Shown here: positions 15,786 to 24,323 of the stretch, piece by piece
Position numbering within the stretch: position 1 is the stretch's first letter
How the letters are laid out: each line of letters opens with the position of its first letter
Origin: a virus
Length of the DNA: 25,324 nt
IMG/VR virus record: IMGVR_UViG_3300030109_004463
Span: 1-25,324 of that record
Strand: one strand, 5' to 3'
The notes under the pieces: generated by a model
Seen by the model: the letters and a program-made list of their open reading frames with translations, nothing else
Told to the model about the DNA's origin: nothing
The model's database searches: none
Program-made: the position numbers and the translations under genes

Positions 15786-15994
15786 TGCAACGTAGAAGAA
15801 AATCAACGATTACTAGGGATCAGTTGCTTCGAGCCTTGTATGATTATTTCAAGGATGAAGAGTCAACCTTTGATGAAATCTATATTGATGGAAGCGAGGA
15901 GCAAGGTACGTTGTATGTTTGTTACGAGCGACTAAGAGAAAATAGAATGGATATTTGTTTAATAAAGGAAGGAAAAGAAATTGACGAAACTTAG
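15785..15994 (+). CDS. Small hypothetical protein
   Basis: The 69-residue product starts with a basic MQRRRKSTITRDQLLRALYD and continues acidic. The layout (basic arm, helix, then strands such as EIYIDGSEEQGTLYVCYERL) could suit a small DNA-binding protein, but no family is recognised. Ribosome site GAGAGGAG lies upstream. Its last 14 bases overlap the start of the methyltransferase, which suggests coupled translation with it. Confidence 0.65.
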   Translation: MQRRRKSTITRDQLLRALYDYFKDEESTFDEIYIDGSEEQGTLYVCYERLRENRMDICLIKEGKEIDET

Positions 15995-17057
15995 GCACGT
16001 TGATTTGTGTTCGGGAATCGGGGGTTTTGCCCTCGGTTTCCAATGGGCAGAGTTGTCCAAAACAATAATGTTTTGCGACACCGAGAAGTGGTGTCGTGAA
16101 ATCCTAGCGAAGAATTTTCCCGAAACCCGAATAGAAAAAGATGTAAAGGAGTTAGCAAATGACCCAGAGAGACTTGTTCCCGACCACGATATCCTCACCG
16201 CCGGATATCCCTGTCAGCCGTTCTCGGTTGCCGGACTTAGAAAAGGAGAAAAAGATGACCGTCACATCTGGCCGTACATCTTTAGAATTATTACATGCAA
16301 AAGACCCACTTGGTGCGTTTTCGAAAACGTTTATGGTCACATTGCCTTGGGTCTCGACAAAGTGCTCGCTGACTTGGAAAGTGAAGGCTACTCCACAAGG
16401 ACGTTTGTTGTTCCAGCTTGTGCCAAAGACGCATTCCATCGCAGAGACCGACTCTGGATTATTGCACACTCCGACAGCAAAAGCGAACCAGATGTCTCCG
16501 AGCATGAAGGAAAGAGACAAGGGAAGTTGGGGGAAAGAACCACCATTGTGGAAAACACCATTGGTGGACGATGCGAAGAACGTGACACCGAATCCGAAGA
16601 GGTTTCAAGGTCTTTACGCACAAGTTCAAATGTGGCCGACTCCGACAACGAAGGGTTACGGTCACGGAAGCGAGGGTCAGTACCAAAATCTTTACAAAAA
16701 AATGATTCAAGGAGTTATCACGCAGACAGATTTGGAAGTTATGACGGCAACAAAGATGGAAAACCACAGGTCTTACAAAAAAATGCAGAAGATGTGGCCG
16801 ACTCCGACGACGAGGGATCACAAGGGGGGATACATCGGGGGGAGAATTCGGAACGGCAAAGTTTCGATGGACACTCTGGACGTAGCCGTTCAACACACCG
16901 ACAATCAAAGCAAGAGTTCTGGACAGTTGAACCCAACGTGGGTCGAGTGGCTCATGGGATACCCAGAAGGGTGGACAGACTTAAAGGATTAGGAAATGCA
17001 ATCGTGCCACAAATTTCCATGCAGATTGGTCTGGCGATAAAGGAGCATTTGAACTGA
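15981..17057 (+). CDS. DNA (cytosine-5) methyltransferase
   Basis: The 358-residue enzyme starts at TTG 15981, eight bases after GGAAGGA; no earlier start fits and the first Met is past motif I. It transfers methyl from S-adenosylmethionine to C5 of cytosine. Motif I is DLCSGIGG (8-15), motif IV PCQPFS (77-82, catalytic Cys78), motif VI ENV (115-117), motif VIII HRRDR (153-157), and motif X GLGNAIVPQ near 338. Between VIII and X lies about 150 residues of very hydrophilic sequence with duplicated VADSDxEG and LQKN pieces, poorly suited to a normal target-recognition domain. The DNA here also encodes another protein in a second frame. Likely role: self-modification against host restriction. 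Confidence 0.94.
   Translation: MTKLRHVDLCSGIGGFALGFQWAELSKTIMFCDTEKWCREILAKNFPETRIEKDVKELANDPERLVPDHDILTAGYPCQPFSVAGLRKGEKDDRHIWPYIFRIITCKRPTWCVFENVYGHIALGLDKVLADLESEGYSTRTFVVPACAKDAFHRRDRLWIIAHSDSKSEPDVSEHEGKRQGKLGERTTIVENTIGGRCEERDTESEEVSRSLRTSSNVADSDNEGLRSRKRGSVPKSLQKNDSRSYHADRFGSYDGNKDGKPQVLQKNAEDVADSDDEGSQGGIHRGENSERQSFDGHSGRSRSTHRQSKQEFWTVEPNVGRVAHGIPRRVDRLKGLGNAIVPQISMQIGLAIKEHLN
16145..16151 (+). promoter_or_regulatory. Internal ribosome binding site for the overlapping gene
   Basis: AAAGGAG lies seven bases before the ATG at 16159, inside the methyltransferase gene. It is a near-ideal Shine-Dalgarno site with no evident use other than to start the frame at 16159. Confidence 0.7.
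16159..16992 (+). CDS. Overlapping +1-frame gene inside the methyltransferase (WPTPT/WVEWLMG protein)
   Basis: This 277-residue frame lies wholly inside the methyltransferase gene, shifted by one base. It has its own ATG and AAAGGAG site, directly after an in-frame stop. It contains LTWKVKATPQGRLLFQLVP (71-89), a row of HTPTA, WKTPL and two MWPTPTT units (103-218), and LNPTWVEWLMGYPEGWTDL (257-275). From memory, TWKxKxTPxxRLLFQL, repeated MWPTPT and LNPxWVEWLMGxPxGWTDL characterise proteins in phages and metagenomes that are often labelled methyltransferase-related. An open frame of 834 bases with three family motifs is unlikely by chance. Function unknown; it might assist or recognise the target for the enzyme it overlaps. 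Confidence 0.72.
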   Translation: MTQRDLFPTTISSPPDIPVSRSRLPDLEKEKKMTVTSGRTSLELLHAKDPLGAFSKTFMVTLPWVSTKCSLTWKVKATPQGRLLFQLVPKTHSIAETDSGLLHTPTAKANQMSPSMKERDKGSWGKEPPLWKTPLVDDAKNVTPNPKRFQGLYAQVQMWPTPTTKGYGHGSEGQYQNLYKKMIQGVITQTDLEVMTATKMENHRSYKKMQKMWPTPTTRDHKGGYIGGRIRNGKVSMDTLDVAVQHTDNQSKSSGQLNPTWVEWLMGYPEGWTDLKD

Positions 17058-17274: not shown

Positions 17275-17451
17275 ATGATTACCAAACAACCCAAGCAAGA
17301 GTTTCGAAATGTGGCACTCTTGCTTGATACGCATGGTCGTATAAAAGAAATTGCCGACGCTGAACAACGAACGATAGCTCGGCAACTAAAGATTATAATT
17401 GAAAGAGAACACGCTAAGTATTTTGGACCAGGGGAGGACGATTATGTTTAA
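17275..17451 (+). CDS. Probable ribbon-helix-helix (Arc/CopG-type) regulator
   Basis: I start at the ATG at 17275 (MITKQPKQEFRNVALLLD), directly after AAGGAGACGATA, giving 58 residues. A strand NVALLLD is followed by helix THGRIKEIADAEQRT and helix IARQLKIIIEREHAKYF. This is the layout of ribbon-helix-helix repressors, where the strand enters the DNA major groove of a dimer. It may regulate this operon or be an antitoxin-like protein, but no toxin partner is visible. It overlaps the transporter gene by eight bases. Confidence 0.65.
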   Translation: MITKQPKQEFRNVALLLDTHGRIKEIADAEQRTIARQLKIIIEREHAKYFGPGEDDYV

Positions 17452-17914
17452 TTATAAATTTTCTATAGGATATATTTTATCTATTGTTTTAGTAAATATT
17501 GGCTTTGTTTATGTGGCTCCGATTCCACTTTTGGGAGAGATGTTTCCACCCATGTCTTTTGTAGTTGGAGCCGTCTTTATACTTAGGGATTATGCCCAAA
17601 GAGAAATAGGACACAAGGTTCTAGGTGCAATGTTAGTTGGAGCTGGACTAAGTTATTTAATGGCTGATCCTTTTGTGGCGATAGCATCTTTAGTTGCTTT
17701 TGTTATTTCTGAAACGGCTGATTGGGGTGTTTACTCTGTAACGAAAAAACCGTTAGGTCAGAGAATTTTAATTTCTTCGGCAATAGCAACCCCGATTGAT
17801 AGTGCAGTATTTTTATACATGATTGGATACTTTAGTGTTCTTGGTTGTATTCTTATGGTTCTTGCAAAGATGGTTGCCGCCGGATTAATTTGGTGGAGAT
17901 TAAAGGGTGAATAA
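17444..17914 (+). CDS. VUT/YhhQ-type queuosine-precursor transporter
   Basis: Starting at the ATG at 17444 (after GGGGAGG), this 156-residue membrane protein has about five to six hydrophobic helices. Key stretches are FVVGAVFILRDYAQREIGHK (about 39-58), VAFVISETADWGVY (about 85-98) and SSAIATPIDSAVF (about 111-123). The order FxLRDxxxRxxG...SExxDxxVY...GxxxDSxxF is that of PF02592 (VUT family, E. coli YhhQ), which imports preQ0/preQ1. It is shorter than YhhQ (221 residues). With the next two genes it suggests uptake of a 7-deazaguanine base. The link to DNA modification is inference. Confidence 0.82.
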   Translation: MFNYKFSIGYILSIVLVNIGFVYVAPIPLLGEMFPPMSFVVGAVFILRDYAQREIGHKVLGAMLVGAGLSYLMADPFVAIASLVAFVISETADWGVYSVTKKPLGQRILISSAIATPIDSAVFLYMIGYFSVLGCILMVLAKMVAAGLIWWRLKGE

Positions 17915-18185
17915 ATACACTTTTAATTTCACATGTATTTGTCCTAGCGATAAGGAAACTATTTCGTATAAAGCAATCATTGAAACAAAAGAAATGATTA
18001 TGGTTGAGAATATTAACGATTATATTTACCAAATATCTGGAAAAGAATGGTTTCAAGAAAAACTTACAGAAAAAATAGCAAACGCATTTTCTATTACAGG
18101 AGAAGGACATGGAGTTAAGGTAACAACTTTTGGCACACACCAAGGAGTTGAGATTGAGTGTGAGTTAGGGAGTTCTACACTTTGA
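17907..18185 (+). CDS. QueF/FolE-like T-fold protein
   Basis: The 92-residue protein starts at GTG 17907, six bases after GGAGAT. FTCICPSDKETISYKAII (residues 8-25) aligns with the QueF segment FTxLCPxTGQPDFATI, placing Cys12 at the position of the QueF nucleophile. MVENINDYI lies near the QueF VESKSL site, and FQEKLTEKIANAF plus GVKVTTFGTHQGVEIE matches the second half of the T-fold (also seen in FolE). The QPD part is missing and the protein is shorter than QueF. It may act on preQ0, by reduction or another change, or be a diverged GTP cyclohydrolase relative. Its neighbours favour the deazaguanine role. Confidence 0.55.
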   Translation: MNKYTFNFTCICPSDKETISYKAIIETKEMIMVENINDYIYQISGKEWFQEKLTEKIANAFSITGEGHGVKVTTFGTHQGVEIECELGSSTL

Positions 18186-18865
18186 TTCATTATCATGGAA
18201 CACCTATGACTCCACGTTCCAAACTTTTACCAATGGCAGGGAAGCACTTTTGTGTTTCCTTTGCCGACAAAAGAGACGGGGATTGGTGTTTATTAAACGC
18301 ACAATCTGTTATGTGGGACAATGGAGCTTTCACTGCGTATACGAAAGGTAAAGCTCCCGATTGGAACGGTTATTATAAATGGCTGGAGGATCGATTGTCT
18401 CACCCACATTGGGCAGTTGTTCCCGATGTCATTGATGGAACTCCCGAAAATAATTTAGAATTAATAAACCAGTGGCCCCATCGTAAGGATTGCAGTGCCG
18501 TGGTATGGCATATGGACGAGCCGATAGATCATCTTTTGCATTTATTGACTCTTGGTTTTGGTAAACTTTGTTTTGGTTCATCTGGTAAATATTGGCAAGT
18601 AGGATCGGAGTCTTGGGAACGACGAGCAGATGAAGCGTTTAACGCTATATCAAAAGAAGGTGTTATTCCCTGGATACACATGCTTCGAGGATTATCAATG
18701 TCTGGAGACAAATATCCTTTTGCTTCGGCCGACAGTGCAAATGTTGCTCGGCATCATAATGAGTTAAACATTTGTCCTGAACGAATGGCTCGACGTATTG
18801 ATGCTGTTCAATGTCCTTCGTTTTGGAATTTAAGACCTACTCAGGAGGATTTTTTTGAAACGTAA
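18182..18865 (+). CDS. DpdA-like / tRNA-guanine transglycosylase-like protein
   Basis: The 227-residue protein starts at TTG 18182, overlapping the previous stop (TTGA), with GGGAG upstream; this start keeps the conserved HGTP. Motifs in order: WDNGAFTAY (45-53, like the DSGGFQ Asp loop of TGT), WAVVPDVIDG (77-86), VVWHMDEP (107-114), CFGSSG (130-135), IHMLRGL (165-171) and YPFASADSAN (178-187). This order fits the TIM-barrel TGT/DpdA group, in which DpdA exchanges guanine in DNA for preQ0 or a derivative. I recall closely similar phage proteins. It lacks a visible tRNA-binding domain. A DNA target is inferred from phage context and from the transporter and T-fold genes beside it. Confidence 0.72.
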   Translation: MIHYHGTPMTPRSKLLPMAGKHFCVSFADKRDGDWCLLNAQSVMWDNGAFTAYTKGKAPDWNGYYKWLEDRLSHPHWAVVPDVIDGTPENNLELINQWPHRKDCSAVVWHMDEPIDHLLHLLTLGFGKLCFGSSGKYWQVGSESWERRADEAFNAISKEGVIPWIHMLRGLSMSGDKYPFASADSANVARHHNELNICPERMARRIDAVQCPSFWNLRPTQEDFFET

Positions 18866-19874: not shown

Positions 19875-21313
19875 TCTCTTGCTTTTTCTCCTAGTACTTG
19901 AGCACTTATGTTAATCTTTCCCCGAAGAGCTGCAACAATTTTCTCATCGATTGTTTTATCGCAAATCAGGTCTACATAGGTAACTGGGTTTTTCTGACCA
20001 ATTCTATGACACCGGTCTTCTGATTGAGATCGTGTGTCCAGGTTAAAGTCATTTGTATAATAAACGACAGTATTGGCCTCGGTCAGAGTCAGGCCACGAC
20101 CTGCTGTTGCAGGATTTCCTACGAAGAACCGAAGGTCCGATGTTTGAGATTGGAAGTCCCGAATAACCTTTTGTCTTTCGTCGTCTGTAGTATCCCCGAA
20201 GAACGACGCTGCTGTTCCTTCCCCGAAAGTTTTATTCAGCTGTTTGGTGATGTGAATTATATCGTACCGAAACCGTGACCATATAATCATCTTTCCCGAA
20301 GTCTCACCACATATATCAAGGAGTGCGTCCAATCGTTGTGTTGGAAACTCTATAAGTTCGCCTTCATCGGTTTTTAAATACCCCGAAAGAATCTGTTGCA
20401 ATCGAAGCATCTGCGTAATAACGGCTGGAGCCGTAACAAGTTCGCCATTGTCAAACATAATCATCGCTTGCTTTTGAATCTTCTTATACATGTCCGATTG
20501 TTCTTTGGAGAGTTCGATGTGCCTTGAGGTAAAGGTTTTATCAGGCAAATCCAGACAATCCTTTTTTAAAACCCGATAGCTAAACTCTTCGAGCTTCGTG
20601 GTTAGCTCGTCTATGTTTCGAAACCCGACAACCTTTTGAAAGGACAACGCGCCCATCTTGACGCTTTTAAGAATTGCGTACCGTGCTTGAAATGCGTAGA
20701 AGGACGAGAACCCCAACATCTTTTCGCCTAAGAACTCGCATTGGGAATAAAGATCCATAGGTGTATTTGTTACCGGTGATCCCGTTAGAATTCTTTTGTA
20801 CTTAAACAACCTAGACACTTTAATCAAAGCCTTGGTTCGCTTGGCCTTGTGATTCTTAATCGTTGTGGATTCATCAACGGCAATGAGTCCTTTGTCCCCG
20901 AACTTCTTGCCAAAGAATGTCCCCGACTCCCGACCTTTAATAGAGGAGTAGGCTTCGACGTTCATGACAAAGATTTTCATTTTTCCCGTTGCGTTTATCA
21001 TACGCTTTATTTCAGCCTTGCGGCTCGAAGTCATTGGTGACTGCCAACTGGACATATACGTTGGTACGTCTTCCCAAAAATGAATCGGGATTTCCATCTC
21101 AACCCAGTTGCGATAAACGCCCTTGGGTGCTATGATAAGAGCGAAGTCTATTTCACCTTCTGTATAAAGTCGTGCAATATCATCAAGTAAAACCTTAGAT
21201 TTACCGGTTCCCATTTCCATAAAGAACCCGAAAGATTTCTTCCCAGTACAACGCTCCAAAGCCATTATTTGATGTCTATATGGTTTTGTTTTAAATTTGT
21301 AGTTGACTTTCAT
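19850..21313 (-). CDS. SNF2-family (SF2) helicase/ATPase
   Basis: The 487-residue protein has a full set of SF2 motifs: I EMGTGKS (33-39), Ia IIAPKGVYRNW (60-70), II VDEST (146-150), III LTGSP (177-181), IV MIIWSRF (342-348), V GRGLTLTEAN (405-414) and VI QSEDRCHRIGQ (430-440). HRIGQ is typical of the SNF2 group. Such phage enzymes are thought to move along duplex DNA in replication or recombination. The ATG follows AGGGAGGA at good spacing. It is first in the leftward operon that also carries the lysin and faces a rightward operon across a gap of under 90 bases. Confidence 0.94.
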   Translation of the reverse strand: MKVNYKFKTKPYRHQIMALERCTGKKSFGFFMEMGTGKSKVLLDDIARLYTEGEIDFALIIAPKGVYRNWVEMEIPIHFWEDVPTYMSSWQSPMTSSRKAEIKRMINATGKMKIFVMNVEAYSSIKGRESGTFFGKKFGDKGLIAVDESTTIKNHKAKRTKALIKVSRLFKYKRILTGSPVTNTPMDLYSQCEFLGEKMLGFSSFYAFQARYAILKSVKMGALSFQKVVGFRNIDELTTKLEEFSYRVLKKDCLDLPDKTFTSRHIELSKEQSDMYKKIQKQAMIMFDNGELVTAPAVITQMLRLQQILSGYLKTDEGELIEFPTQRLDALLDICGETSGKMIIWSRFRYDIIHITKQLNKTFGEGTAASFFGDTTDDERQKVIRDFQSQTSDLRFFVGNPATAGRGLTLTEANTVVYYTNDFNLDTRSQSEDRCHRIGQKNPVTYVDLICDKTIDEKIVAALRGKINISAQVLGEKAREWLEIKKT

Positions 21314-21332
21314 ATATGTCCTCCCTTATGTT
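21303..21332 (+). promoter_or_regulatory. Candidate promoter of the replication operon
   Basis: TTGACT (21303-21308) and TATGTT (21327-21332) lie 18 bases apart. The -35 overlaps the first codons of the divergent helicase gene, so the two transcription units would compete for polymerase here. The -10 is weak. Confidence 0.35.
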
Positions 21333-21395
21333 AAATATACGGTAATCATGAGATGCCGTCAACTGAAACTTAAACCTGAAGAGGATGTACTTGTC

Positions 21396-21965
21396 ATGGT
21401 GACAGATATTTTTGATGAAAAGATGTTCGTGGACCCAACATCATTTAGCGGTGTTGATACGCAGACAATGAAGAACCTCTCCAACCTGGTTCAACAACTT
21501 AACAACGTTGTCAGCACGATTGCTGATAAAGAAGAAGAGTTGAAAGAACTTCGAGCGGAGAAGCAACGACTATCCATTGATATAATTCCACAAGTTATGG
21601 ACGAGATGGGTACAGAACGTGTAGACGTTGAGGGGGGCTCGGTAAGTTTAAGACCGTTCATCTCCGCAAGTATTCCCAAAGATGAAGAGAAGAAGCAGAA
21701 AGCTTTTGATTGTTTGAGGGAGTATGGTTTGGAATCTATAATAAAGAACGATGTTGTTCTGACCTTTGCAAAAGGGGAAGACAATGTTGCCAAGTCACTG
21801 ATAGCTGATTTGGAGCAAAAAGGTTTTGAACCCGAAACAAAAACACACGTTCATCCTTCAACATTAAAAGCAACTTTGCGTACTTGTGTTGAAGATGGGA
21901 AACCAATCGATCTTGATCCGTTCAATGCGTTTATCGCTAGAACGGCTGTTATAACTGCCAAATAG
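21396..21965 (+). CDS. Conserved phage protein with coiled coil
   Basis: I prefer the ATG at 21396 (MVTDIFDEKMFVDPTSF), which has GAGGA ten bases upstream and a leader fitting the promoter; an ATG at 21348 would add 16 residues but lacks a ribosome site. The 189-residue protein has a coiled coil (about 30-65, LVQQLNNVVSTIADKEEELK), IIPQVMDEMGTERVDVEGGS (about 68-87), ISASIPKDEEKKQKA and THVHPSTLKATLR (about 152-164). I recall the order iPelmxExG...AsIPkd...VHPqTLkA in phage replication regions, without known function. Confidence 0.78.
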   Translation: MVTDIFDEKMFVDPTSFSGVDTQTMKNLSNLVQQLNNVVSTIADKEEELKELRAEKQRLSIDIIPQVMDEMGTERVDVEGGSVSLRPFISASIPKDEEKKQKAFDCLREYGLESIIKNDVVLTFAKGEDNVAKSLIADLEQKGFEPETKTHVHPSTLKATLRTCVEDGKPIDLDPFNAFIARTAVITAK

Positions 21966-21976
21966 GAGGAATAGAA

Positions 21977-22747
21977 ATGGCTAATGATTTAGAAAAGGGT
22001 AAGTCAAACTTACCAGCAGAACTTATGGACGATATTTTTGCGACAGCAGGTCAGGGGGTTGATTACGAAACCTCTGAGTTGCAGATACCTTTCGTTCGTG
22101 TAATACAAGCGTTATCTCCACAGATAAAAAAGAATGATTCTTTGTTTATCAAAGGAGCATCACAAGGAGATGCGTTCAACACCGTAACAGGCGATTATTG
22201 GGTTGGAGAAGAAGGGTTCGAAGTTGTGCCGTGTCTTCAACAAACCAAGTACTTGGAGTTTATACCAAGGGATCAAGGCGGTGGTGGATTTGTGGGAGAA
22301 CTACCTTCCGACAGTCCAGAGATTGCGAAGGCTACGAGAACCGGTGGCAAAGAAACATTGCCCAATGGAAACGAACTTGTCAAAACTGATCAGCATTATT
22401 GTTTGCTTCTTGATAAAGATGGCATGTTTCAACCTGTTATCATCGATATGAAATCGACACAGTTAAAAGTGTCTCGTCGATGGAAGACACAAATTGCCAT
22501 GCAGAAGATTAAGGCTCCTGATGGACAACTAAAAACTCCTGCACTTTTTGCTACGATATGGAAGTTTACAACCATAGAAGAAAGCAATGATATGGGGAGT
22601 TGGTTTAACTGGTCGATAGAAAAATCTAAGACGATTGACGACAAGTCTCTTTTTCTTGAAGCCATGAATTTCCGTAAATCAATTGAGAAGGGCGAAGCCA
22701 AAGCCGTTGTGGAAGATCACGGCGAAAAGGATGACGTACCGTTTTAA
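21977..22747 (+). CDS. Phage protein with SSB-like acidic C-terminal tip
   Basis: The 256-residue protein follows GGAGGAATAGAA. The N-terminal third has LQIPFVRVIQALSPQIKK, the middle GGGGFVGELPSD and HYCLLLDKDGMFQPVIIDM (about 141-159), then SRRWKTQIAMQKI and PALFATIWKFTTIEE. The tail is acidic and ends EKDDVPF, like the DDDIPF tip of bacterial single-strand binding proteins. It is longer than typical SSB, and no OB-fold can be shown by eye, but a single-strand DNA binding role fits its place before the primase and the tip. I recall similar phage proteins without firm annotation. Confidence 0.78.
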   Translation: MANDLEKGKSNLPAELMDDIFATAGQGVDYETSELQIPFVRVIQALSPQIKKNDSLFIKGASQGDAFNTVTGDYWVGEEGFEVVPCLQQTKYLEFIPRDQGGGGFVGELPSDSPEIAKATRTGGKETLPNGNELVKTDQHYCLLLDKDGMFQPVIIDMKSTQLKVSRRWKTQIAMQKIKAPDGQLKTPALFATIWKFTTIEESNDMGSWFNWSIEKSKTIDDKSLFLEAMNFRKSIEKGEAKAVVEDHGEKDDVPF

Positions 22748-22778: not shown

Positions 22779-22790
22779 ATGGAGAAGTAT

Positions 22791-24323
22791 ATGTCTGTGA
22801 TAGACCGTTTTATGGCGGCATTTAAAGGGTCAGACCTTGCCCACGGACAAACAACGATTGGTAATAAAAGACGGAACGGAAAGACGGACGCAAAGAGTTT
22901 TATTGTTAAGCAACCACTAACACGAGACTTGATTGAGGAACACTTAAAAGGAAGTAAAGGTGTTGGGGCTATCCCGATTAACGACAGGAATATGTGTAAC
23001 TTTGGTGTCTTGGACATCGACACATATCCGATTGAACATTTAGATATTCTTAAGAAGTGTCGGAAGTTGAAGTTACCATTGATTGTTTGTAGATCAAAAT
23101 CTGGAGGGGCTCATTTGTTTTTGTTTATGAAGACAGAAACAACTGCGTCAGAGCTTCGAGATTACATGGGCGAGATGTCTGCGGCTTTAGGATATGCTGG
23201 GTGCGAGATTTTTCCGAAGCAAGACCAGATTCTTGCTGATCGTGGGGACGTTGGTAATTTTATTAACCTGCCGTACTTTGATGCTAAGAACACTGTTCGA
23301 TACGCTATTAAAGATAATGGCGATGATATGACTCTGGAAGAGTTTTTAGATGAGGTGGACAAGAGACGAGCGACATTGTCCACTTTGGAGAAGATAGATT
23401 TTGGGACGCAAAGGGAACAATACTCTGACGCTCCTCCTTGTTTGCAGATGTTTTTGACAATGGGAATTCCCGAAGGCACGAGGAACAAGGTCATGTTTAA
23501 CTGTGGTATTTATTTAAAACGCAAGTTCCCCGACTCTTGGAAGGAAAAACTAGAAGAAATGAATCAAAAACATTGTCTTCCGGCCTTACCAGCTTCCGAG
23601 GTTGTGACACTGCAAAACCAACTGGATAAGAAGGAGTACTTCTACACATGTAAAGACGAACCTATGGCAAGTCATTGCAACAAATCATTGTGTAAGACAA
23701 GAGCGTTCGGGGTTGGTGCGTCGGAAACGGCTCCTCAAGTTGGGGGCATGACTATTTTACTTTCTGAACCTCGACTGTACTTTCTTGATGTTGATGGAAA
23801 ACGATTGGAAATCACAACAGAACAACTGCAAATGCCTATTCAATTCCAGAGAGCTTGCATGGAACAGATTAACTTTATGCCTCCATTGGTTAAGCCGAGT
23901 GATTGGCAACAGGTGGTAAACAATCTTTATGATAACGCAACGAAGATAGCGGTTTCAGAAGAACTAACGAGTGCAGGACAATTCAAGGAACTTCTTGAAA
24001 CTTTCTGTATGAGTCGGATTAGAGCTAAGTTTCCCGAAGAGTTGGCGGTTGGAAAGCCGTGGACCGAGGACGACACAACATATTTTACAATGAAAGGGTT
24101 ACAGGAATTCTTGAGGCAGAGAGGATTTACTTTATACAACAGGCCACAAATCCAAGAGCGTTTAAAAGAATTGAACAACAATCAAGCGTGTCACGGACAG
24201 TATAAGGTAAAAACGGACGAGGGGAAATGGACAAACATAAGAGTTTGGTGGGTTCCTAGATTTGAAACAAGCGAGGTAGAAATACCTTTAAACGAAAAGG
24301 AGATTGATGATGTCCCATTCTGA
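22791..24323 (+). CDS. Archaeo-eukaryotic (TOTE-type) DNA primase
   Basis: The ATG at 22791 (MSVIDRFMAAFKG) follows GGAG by six bases; one at 22779 would place that site inside the gene. The 510-residue protein has an AEP core: FGVLDIDTYP (71-80, metal ligands Asp75 and Asp77), CRSKSGGAHLFLF (100-112, Ser/His), EIFPKQDQ (139-146) and GNFINLPYF (155-163). This matches primases of the TOTE conflict-system type. FYTCKDEP...HCNKSLCKTRAFGVG (about 285-310) is a cysteine cluster, probably an Fe-S or zinc site. The C-terminal part is helical and ends EIDDVPF, the same tip as the preceding protein. It should make primers for phage DNA synthesis. Confidence 0.9.
   Translation: MSVIDRFMAAFKGSDLAHGQTTIGNKRRNGKTDAKSFIVKQPLTRDLIEEHLKGSKGVGAIPINDRNMCNFGVLDIDTYPIEHLDILKKCRKLKLPLIVCRSKSGGAHLFLFMKTETTASELRDYMGEMSAALGYAGCEIFPKQDQILADRGDVGNFINLPYFDAKNTVRYAIKDNGDDMTLEEFLDEVDKRRATLSTLEKIDFGTQREQYSDAPPCLQMFLTMGIPEGTRNKVMFNCGIYLKRKFPDSWKEKLEEMNQKHCLPALPASEVVTLQNQLDKKEYFYTCKDEPMASHCNKSLCKTRAFGVGASETAPQVGGMTILLSEPRLYFLDVDGKRLEITTEQLQMPIQFQRACMEQINFMPPLVKPSDWQQVVNNLYDNATKIAVSEELTSAGQFKELLETFCMSRIRAKFPEELAVGKPWTEDDTTYFTMKGLQEFLRQRGFTLYNRPQIQERLKELNNNQACHGQYKVKTDEGKWTNIRVWWVPRFETSEVEIPLNEKEIDDVPF

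Follow-up and report, generated by a model that had tools for sequence, protein, structure and literature searches.

A C5-cytosine methyltransferase gene of a phage contains, wholly within it and in the +1 frame, a second gene, and we consider it probable that the locus encodes a two-subunit C5 methyltransferase, with a catalytic chain and a nested chain carrying the target-recognition domain (TRD) and motif IX. No expression, complex or activity data are available for this locus. The stretch of DNA analysed (the window) is a 25,324-base IMG/VR virus record that also encodes terminase, portal, primase and helicase genes.

Layout, coding status and distribution of the nested frame

The nested ORF encodes 277 amino acids and lies at +1 relative to the methyltransferase frame. 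The features of the locus are the following:

15981-17057, + strand: large chain, C5-cytosine methyltransferase with motifs I-VIII and X (TTG start, 358 aa)
16145-16151, + strand: Shine-Dalgarno sequence AAAGGAG of the nested gene, 7 nt 5' of the nested ATG
16159-16992, + strand: nested small chain in the +1 frame (ATG start, 277 aa), with an N-terminal domain, WPTP repeats and a motif-IX-like C-terminus
16203-16226, + strand: motif IV GYPCQPFS (catalytic Cys) in the methyltransferase frame, within the overlap
16234-16458, + strand: N-terminal domain of the nested protein (about residues 26-100, KMTVTSG...LTWKVKATPQGRLLFQLVP), overlapping motifs IV-VIII
16437-16463, + strand: motif VIII HRRDRLWII in the methyltransferase frame, 3' of which this frame is neutral
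16480-16926, + strand: TRD-like repeat region of the nested chain (KTPLVDD; MWPTPTTKG, 16630-16656; MWPTPTTRD, 16792-16818)
16927-16983, + strand: motif-IX-like C-terminus of the nested chain, LNPTWVEWLMGYPEGWTDL
16989-17012, + strand: motif X LGNAIVPQ in the methyltransferase frame, beginning at the last codons of the nested gene

The first-pass annotation had described an 834-base +1 ORF with its own ATG and AAAGGAG inside the methyltransferase gene, and this is confirmed (16159-16992, Shine-Dalgarno 16145-16151). The motifs that it quoted are all present, with one correction of position (NPTWVEWLMGYP begins at 16930, not 16929), and MWPTPT occurs twice in the nested protein.

The large chain matches PF00145 in a Pfam profile search (E 3.9e-37) and M.HhaI by sequence (E 2.4e-37, residues 5-171 of the profile). 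The catalytic PCQ, ENV, motifs I-VIII and motif X are all present, as required of a C5-cytosine methyltransferase. A monomeric enzyme would additionally have the TRD and motif IX between motifs VIII and X in the same chain. The large chain does not meet this requirement because its residues 172-327 are mostly predicted to be disordered and are neutral in the methyltransferase frame. The nested protein matches the PHROG family phrog_1008 (E 2.5e-34). Profile searches of Pfam and NCBIfam gave no match to it, nor did searches of the PDB by sequence and by fold.

Synonymous codons were shuffled while the methyltransferase protein and its codon usage were preserved. The shuffled sequences have a mean of 7.4 stops in the nested frame, and none is found in the 121 actual loci. 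For the window alone, 7.1 nested-frame stops are expected and the frame was open in 0 of 200 shuffles. In 87 non-redundant loci, the third bases of four-fold-degenerate methyltransferase codons have an identity of 0.30 outside the overlap (0.26 expected), against 0.64 inside it. The edges are sharp, with a rise from 0.30 at 16155 to 0.99 at 16164 at the nested ATG and a fall from 0.60 at 16986 to 0.30 at 16992 at the nested stop. The best nested start in 120 homologous loci is ATG in 102, GTG in 14 and TTG in 4, and a Shine-Dalgarno core of at least 4 nt precedes the chosen start in 114 of the 120, a count that is biased upward because the Shine-Dalgarno sequence partly guided the choice of start. 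The typical GATGTAAAGGAGTTAGCAAATG doubles as the methyltransferase residues DVKELAN. Six loci (L003, L065, L068, L062, L078 and L085) have other methyltransferase residues there, and a different Shine-Dalgarno sequence and start at roughly the same position. Judged by these sequence comparisons, the nested frame is a protein-coding gene with its own start, ancient and universally linked to the methyltransferase in this family.

Searches for homologues of the nested frame gave 112 phage records with the window as query (E 1e-5), 228 phage records with a second query (E 0.01), more than 540 IMG/VR stretches per scan among the matches listed, and 345 sites in 84,980 species genomes. The pair is nested at +1 in all 130 loci of the first scans and in 80 of 80 prokaryotic-genome loci. 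A scan anchored on the methyltransferase likewise gave the nested frame at +1 in 80 of 80 loci, 54 of them absent from the first set. By record title, the genome loci belong to Bacillota, Bacteroidota, Pseudomonadota, Desulfobacterota, Acidobacteriota, Spirochaetota, Nitrospirota, Verrucomicrobiota, Actinomycetota, Gemmatimonadota and others. The phages and prophages in which the overlap is seen span more than ten bacterial phyla. The first-pass supposition that the overlap is old and widespread is upheld, as homologues of the nested frame sit inside methyltransferase genes at every locus of the main scans. The methyltransferase query matches 1381 phage records, and the remoter C5-methyltransferases do not all have the nested frame. 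Two loci (L009 and L089) have breaks in both frames close to the end, which probably reflect a mutation or a sequence error.

In bacterial genomes the pair is surrounded by phage genes (integrase, DnaC-like loaders, PAPS reductase, other methyltransferases), and no restriction enzyme is prominent among the 25 neighbour families listed for these genomes. Such surroundings, with genes for phage replication and lysogeny, are consistent with an orphan methyltransferase of phages. The pair also occurs in cultured phages, for instance Escherichia phage K1G and E. coli phage Bas74, the latter with an unannotated nested frame. Both ORFs are listed in the annotation of K1G and of Paenibacillus phage Tadhana, and some records annotate the nested frame only ('Mte8-like', PP996006).

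Selection and enzyme parts in the two frames

Substitutions were scored by their effect in both frames. Over the whole overlap (63 independent pairs), the ratio of nonsynonymous to synonymous change is 0.37 in the nested frame (95% CI 0.32-0.41) and 0.55 in the methyltransferase frame (CI 0.50-0.59). When the overlap is split at motif VIII (47 pairs), both frames are under purifying selection over motifs IV-VIII (0.45 nested, 0.25 methyltransferase). 3' of motif VIII, the nested ratio is 0.34 (0.28-0.40) and the methyltransferase ratio 0.96 (CI 0.89-1.03), with similar values in the middle part that holds the TRD-like repeats (0.35 and 0.97). In a negative control outside the overlap, the +1 frame has a ratio of 0.83 (0.76-0.90) and the methyltransferase frame 0.21. 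The control value of 0.83 puts the baseline of the method slightly below 1, and the rates carry no multiple-hit correction, so that ratios are drawn towards 1. In the frame-wise test that the first-pass annotation had proposed, both frames are therefore constrained over motifs IV-VIII but just the nested one beyond them, and the test has a negative control. After motif VIII the methyltransferase frame is free of stops, although about 5.4 would be expected given the nested protein. Its amino acids are thus under no measurable selection there, yet the frame is kept open.

The large chain was modelled with AlphaFold from 77 sequences; the structure alignments comprised the window and IMG/VR loci only. 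The model has a confident M.HhaI-like catalytic domain (residues 1-165; Foldseek to M.HhaI 2.1e-13) and two confident motif X helices (residues 330-337 and 342-357). Confidence is below or near 50 across most of residues 172-327, and the methyltransferase-frame reading of 16480-16926 is an unconstrained linker predicted to be disordered. It had been claimed that the methyltransferase lacks a normal TRD where the overlap lies. The low model confidence in the stretch (172-327) that links the catalytic domain to the motif X helices bears this out. Modelled alone, the nested chain has low confidence (pLDDT 65, pTM 0.29), with predicted helices at 26-42 and 50-61 and a beta hairpin at 70-90. A poor single-chain model would be expected if the nested protein folds on its partner, which is not proven.

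The nested C-terminus, LNPxWVEWLMGYPxGWT, resembles motif IX, which in M.HhaI reads LHPRECARVMGYPDS. Certain actinophage enzymes with a single frame (L323-L338) have LLPTPxAxD repeats and RLNxAFAEWMMxxPxGxVT in-frame, directly 5' of motif X. An HMM profile of the nested protein matches these enzymes across its C-terminal two thirds (E 1e-10 to 1e-5), and in hhalign the nested C-terminus aligns with their TRD/motif-IX region with a probability of 96.8% (E 2.6e-10). The two profiles align over no more than about 78 columns, and proline is abundant in the repeats. On this sequence evidence, the C-terminal part of the nested protein and the TRD/motif-IX region of single-chain relatives are homologues. 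The assignment of motif IX to the nested chain rests on this homology, without a structure.

Other loci are mosaics of the two frames. In L298-L304, motif IX has returned to the methyltransferase frame, and in L305 the main frame holds motif IX together with the TRD. In this last locus a short +1 ORF (L305:2712-3113) corresponds to the nested N-terminal domain only (E 6.5e-20). Its persistence despite a main-frame TRD and motif IX may point to a role beyond target recognition. The domain (about residues 26-100) was found only with nested or formerly nested enzymes, and to call it an assembly domain is a guess. In L310-L314 (2147-3473), the first ORF stops after motif VIII and an overlapping +1 ORF encodes the N-terminal domain, the TRD and motifs IX and X, a layout resembling that of M.AquI.

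Two further arrangements were observed. In mycobacteriophage Rhynn (L133:2032-2745) and a near-identical locus (L348), a +1 ORF lies within the methylase gene. Its own start is unclear, and its tail has a single WPTPT unit and a motif-IX-like end. In Komagataeibacter phage phiKX1 (L137:1729-3388), an HNH-endonuclease-like insertion lies near the end of the nested gene, 5' of motif X. The methyltransferase frame is open across the insertion (549 codons) and the nested-like tail ITAWDDCAVTAMPSSRKS resumes after it; whether the insertion is an intein or an intron is unresolved.

Competing readings and the proposed enzyme

Long spurious ORFs are common in high-GC phages, and annotators usually drop one of two overlapping frames, so the nested frame might be no more than an untranslated shadow of methyltransferase codon usage. 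The lack of stops where 7.4 are expected, the substitution classes and their negative control all speak against this, and the exact coincidence of the edges of synonymous-site conservation with the nested ORF refutes it; we give this reading practically no credence. Just as negligible is the converse, that the methyltransferase frame has decayed and the nested frame is the sole functional gene, as the records annotating only the 'Mte8-like' frame could suggest. Motifs I-VIII and X are intact, and the idea is contradicted by the methyltransferase-frame ratios of 0.25 over motifs IV-VIII and 0.21 outside the overlap.

Two readings accept both frames as functional. Programmed frameshifting would have the nested frame entered by a +1 shift after motif VIII, never started on its own, giving a chimeric methyltransferase. 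The order of motifs I-VIII, TRD/IX and X in one stretch with alternating frames is what a double shift requires, and relatives with a single frame exist. However, constraint on the nested frame starts at its ATG, upstream of motif VIII, which a shift after motif VIII leaves unexplained, and its Shine-Dalgarno sequence and start codon are conserved. The nested frame thus lacks the marks of such a product, namely no start of its own and constraint only downstream of the shift site. The chimera could also get to motif X only by a second shift that restores the first frame, and the neutral region of the methyltransferase frame contains no stop where roughly 5.4 are expected. We regard frameshifting as very unlikely. 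Somewhat less improbable, but still unlikely, is that the nested protein is real and has a separate function (for instance as a regulator, an anti-restriction factor or a partner nuclease), overprinted by chance. Ordinary C5-methyltransferases have nothing equivalent to its N-terminal domain, which is kept in L305, and the absence of a PDB match leaves room for such a role. Against it stand the homology of the nested C-terminal part to the TRD and motif IX of single-chain enzymes, the shifting of modules between the two chains, the presence of the methyltransferase with the nested protein in every main-scan locus, and the lack of any constrained region of the large chain's own between motifs VIII and X.

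The most likely reading remains that the nested protein is the missing target-recognition and motif IX part of the methyltransferase. As the parts found here in two chains belong to a single chain in some enzymes, a Rosetta-stone argument suggests that the two chains of the window locus may form one enzyme. In the proposed two-subunit enzyme, the larger chain would provide SAM binding, catalysis (motifs I-VIII) and motif X. To get to motif X, the ribosome would cross the target-recognition region in the wrong frame and make an unstructured linker, which must remain open but whose amino acids would not be under selection. The nested +1 gene would start from its own Shine-Dalgarno sequence and ATG, giving one message with two starts, and its product would contribute the target-recognition region and motif IX, while its N-terminal domain may serve to join the subunits. 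Once assembled, the enzyme would protect phage DNA from host restriction by methylating it. The assembly of the chains, the need for both, the methylated site and the anti-restriction role are all inferred.

With less assurance, we lean towards a broader reading, in which such loci form a very widespread class of phage and prophage methyltransferases whose entire TRD lies in a second frame, with the catalytic chain being neutral filler there, the TRD and motifs IX and X having moved between frames, and the N-terminal domain being an undescribed assembly or regulatory domain. If this is true, the overlap locks an enzyme and its specificity into one heritable unit.

Known split enzymes, significance and neighbouring genes

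In 1995, Lee, Kam and Shaw reportedly described the small chain of M.EcoHK31I as read from an alternative frame within the large-chain gene, and such nesting is present in the window pair. M.EcoHK31I, which recognises YGGCCR (Lee, Kam and Shaw 1995, described in PMC3404938), is built from two polypeptides: motifs I-VIII, motif X and a predicted TRD are in the larger, and motif IX is in the smaller (PMC3404938). The window pair is alike in having motifs I-VIII and X in the large chain and motif IX in the small one. It differs in that its TRD-like part is in the nested chain, whereas the predicted TRD of M.EcoHK31I is in the large chain (PMC3404938); the large-chain stretch of the window pair that matches this position is neutral and predicted to be disordered. 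In this respect the window locus is unlike M.EcoHK31I, and the placement of that enzyme's TRD counts against our reading. M.EcoHK31I is also a restriction-modification enzyme, whereas pairs of the window type occur in phages and prophages. In a search of plasmids for EcoHK31I-like pairs, the methyltransferase genes found were mostly annotated as such and none was identifiable as EcoHK31I.

M.AquI (CYCGRG) is naturally split into two polypeptides in the variable region, with motifs IX and X in the small chain (PMC3404938). Like the window pair it is a naturally split C5-methyltransferase, and L310-L314 resemble it in layout, but motif X of the window locus is in the large chain, so the window pair is not of the M.AquI type. 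M.HhaI and the actinophage enzymes share the catalytic domain with the window locus but have all motifs in one chain and one frame; the actinophage enzymes additionally share PTP repeats and the motif-IX-like sequence with the nested chain. The 'Mte8-like' proteins of Escherichia and Salmonella phages (phrog_1008) are the nested protein, annotated as separate genes. In phage K1G, ORF30 (Mte8-like) lies inside ORF31 (methylase). The 'Mte8-like' gene is named in PMC5582158 without discussion of the overlap.

Our literature searches found no description of the phage overlap and none that explains the Mte8-like overlap. The earlier statement that no published description was known thus holds for the overlap in phages; it does not hold for the two-chain kind of enzyme, which is already known from the published two-polypeptide precedent M.EcoHK31I (PMC3404938). 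The breadth in phages, the split of selection and the frame mosaics appear to be undescribed in the papers searched. The overlap is repeatedly mis-annotated, with one frame dropped or both named methyltransferase. To our knowledge, few same-strand overlaps outside a handful of textbook viruses are at once long, ancient and clear in function, and this one offers a natural test bed in which a neutral and a constrained frame can be measured on identical bases. It would also supply many natural, separable specificity subunits for cytosine methylation, of use in assigning phage motifs and as split-enzyme tools.

Elsewhere in the window, the region directly 3' of the methyltransferase (17399-18865, + strand) encodes a Vut_1-type transporter (PF02592, 2.7e-6) and a queuine tRNA-ribosyltransferase-like protein (phrog_887, 1.7e-37). 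An ORF at 17907-18185 has a weak, GTP-cyclohydrolase-I/QueF-like match that is under the cut-off (4.9e-4). The region 17399-18865 is possibly a 7-deazaguanine tRNA or DNA modification module adjoining the methyltransferase. Further downstream are members of the cyanophage Pam3 gp33-like (21303-21965, + strand; PF23984, 7.8e-23) and gp34-like (21977-22747, + strand; PF23977, 8.7e-62) families, and a protein with an AEP-TOTE primase domain (22779-24323, + strand; PF22548, 5.6e-17; PHROG primase).
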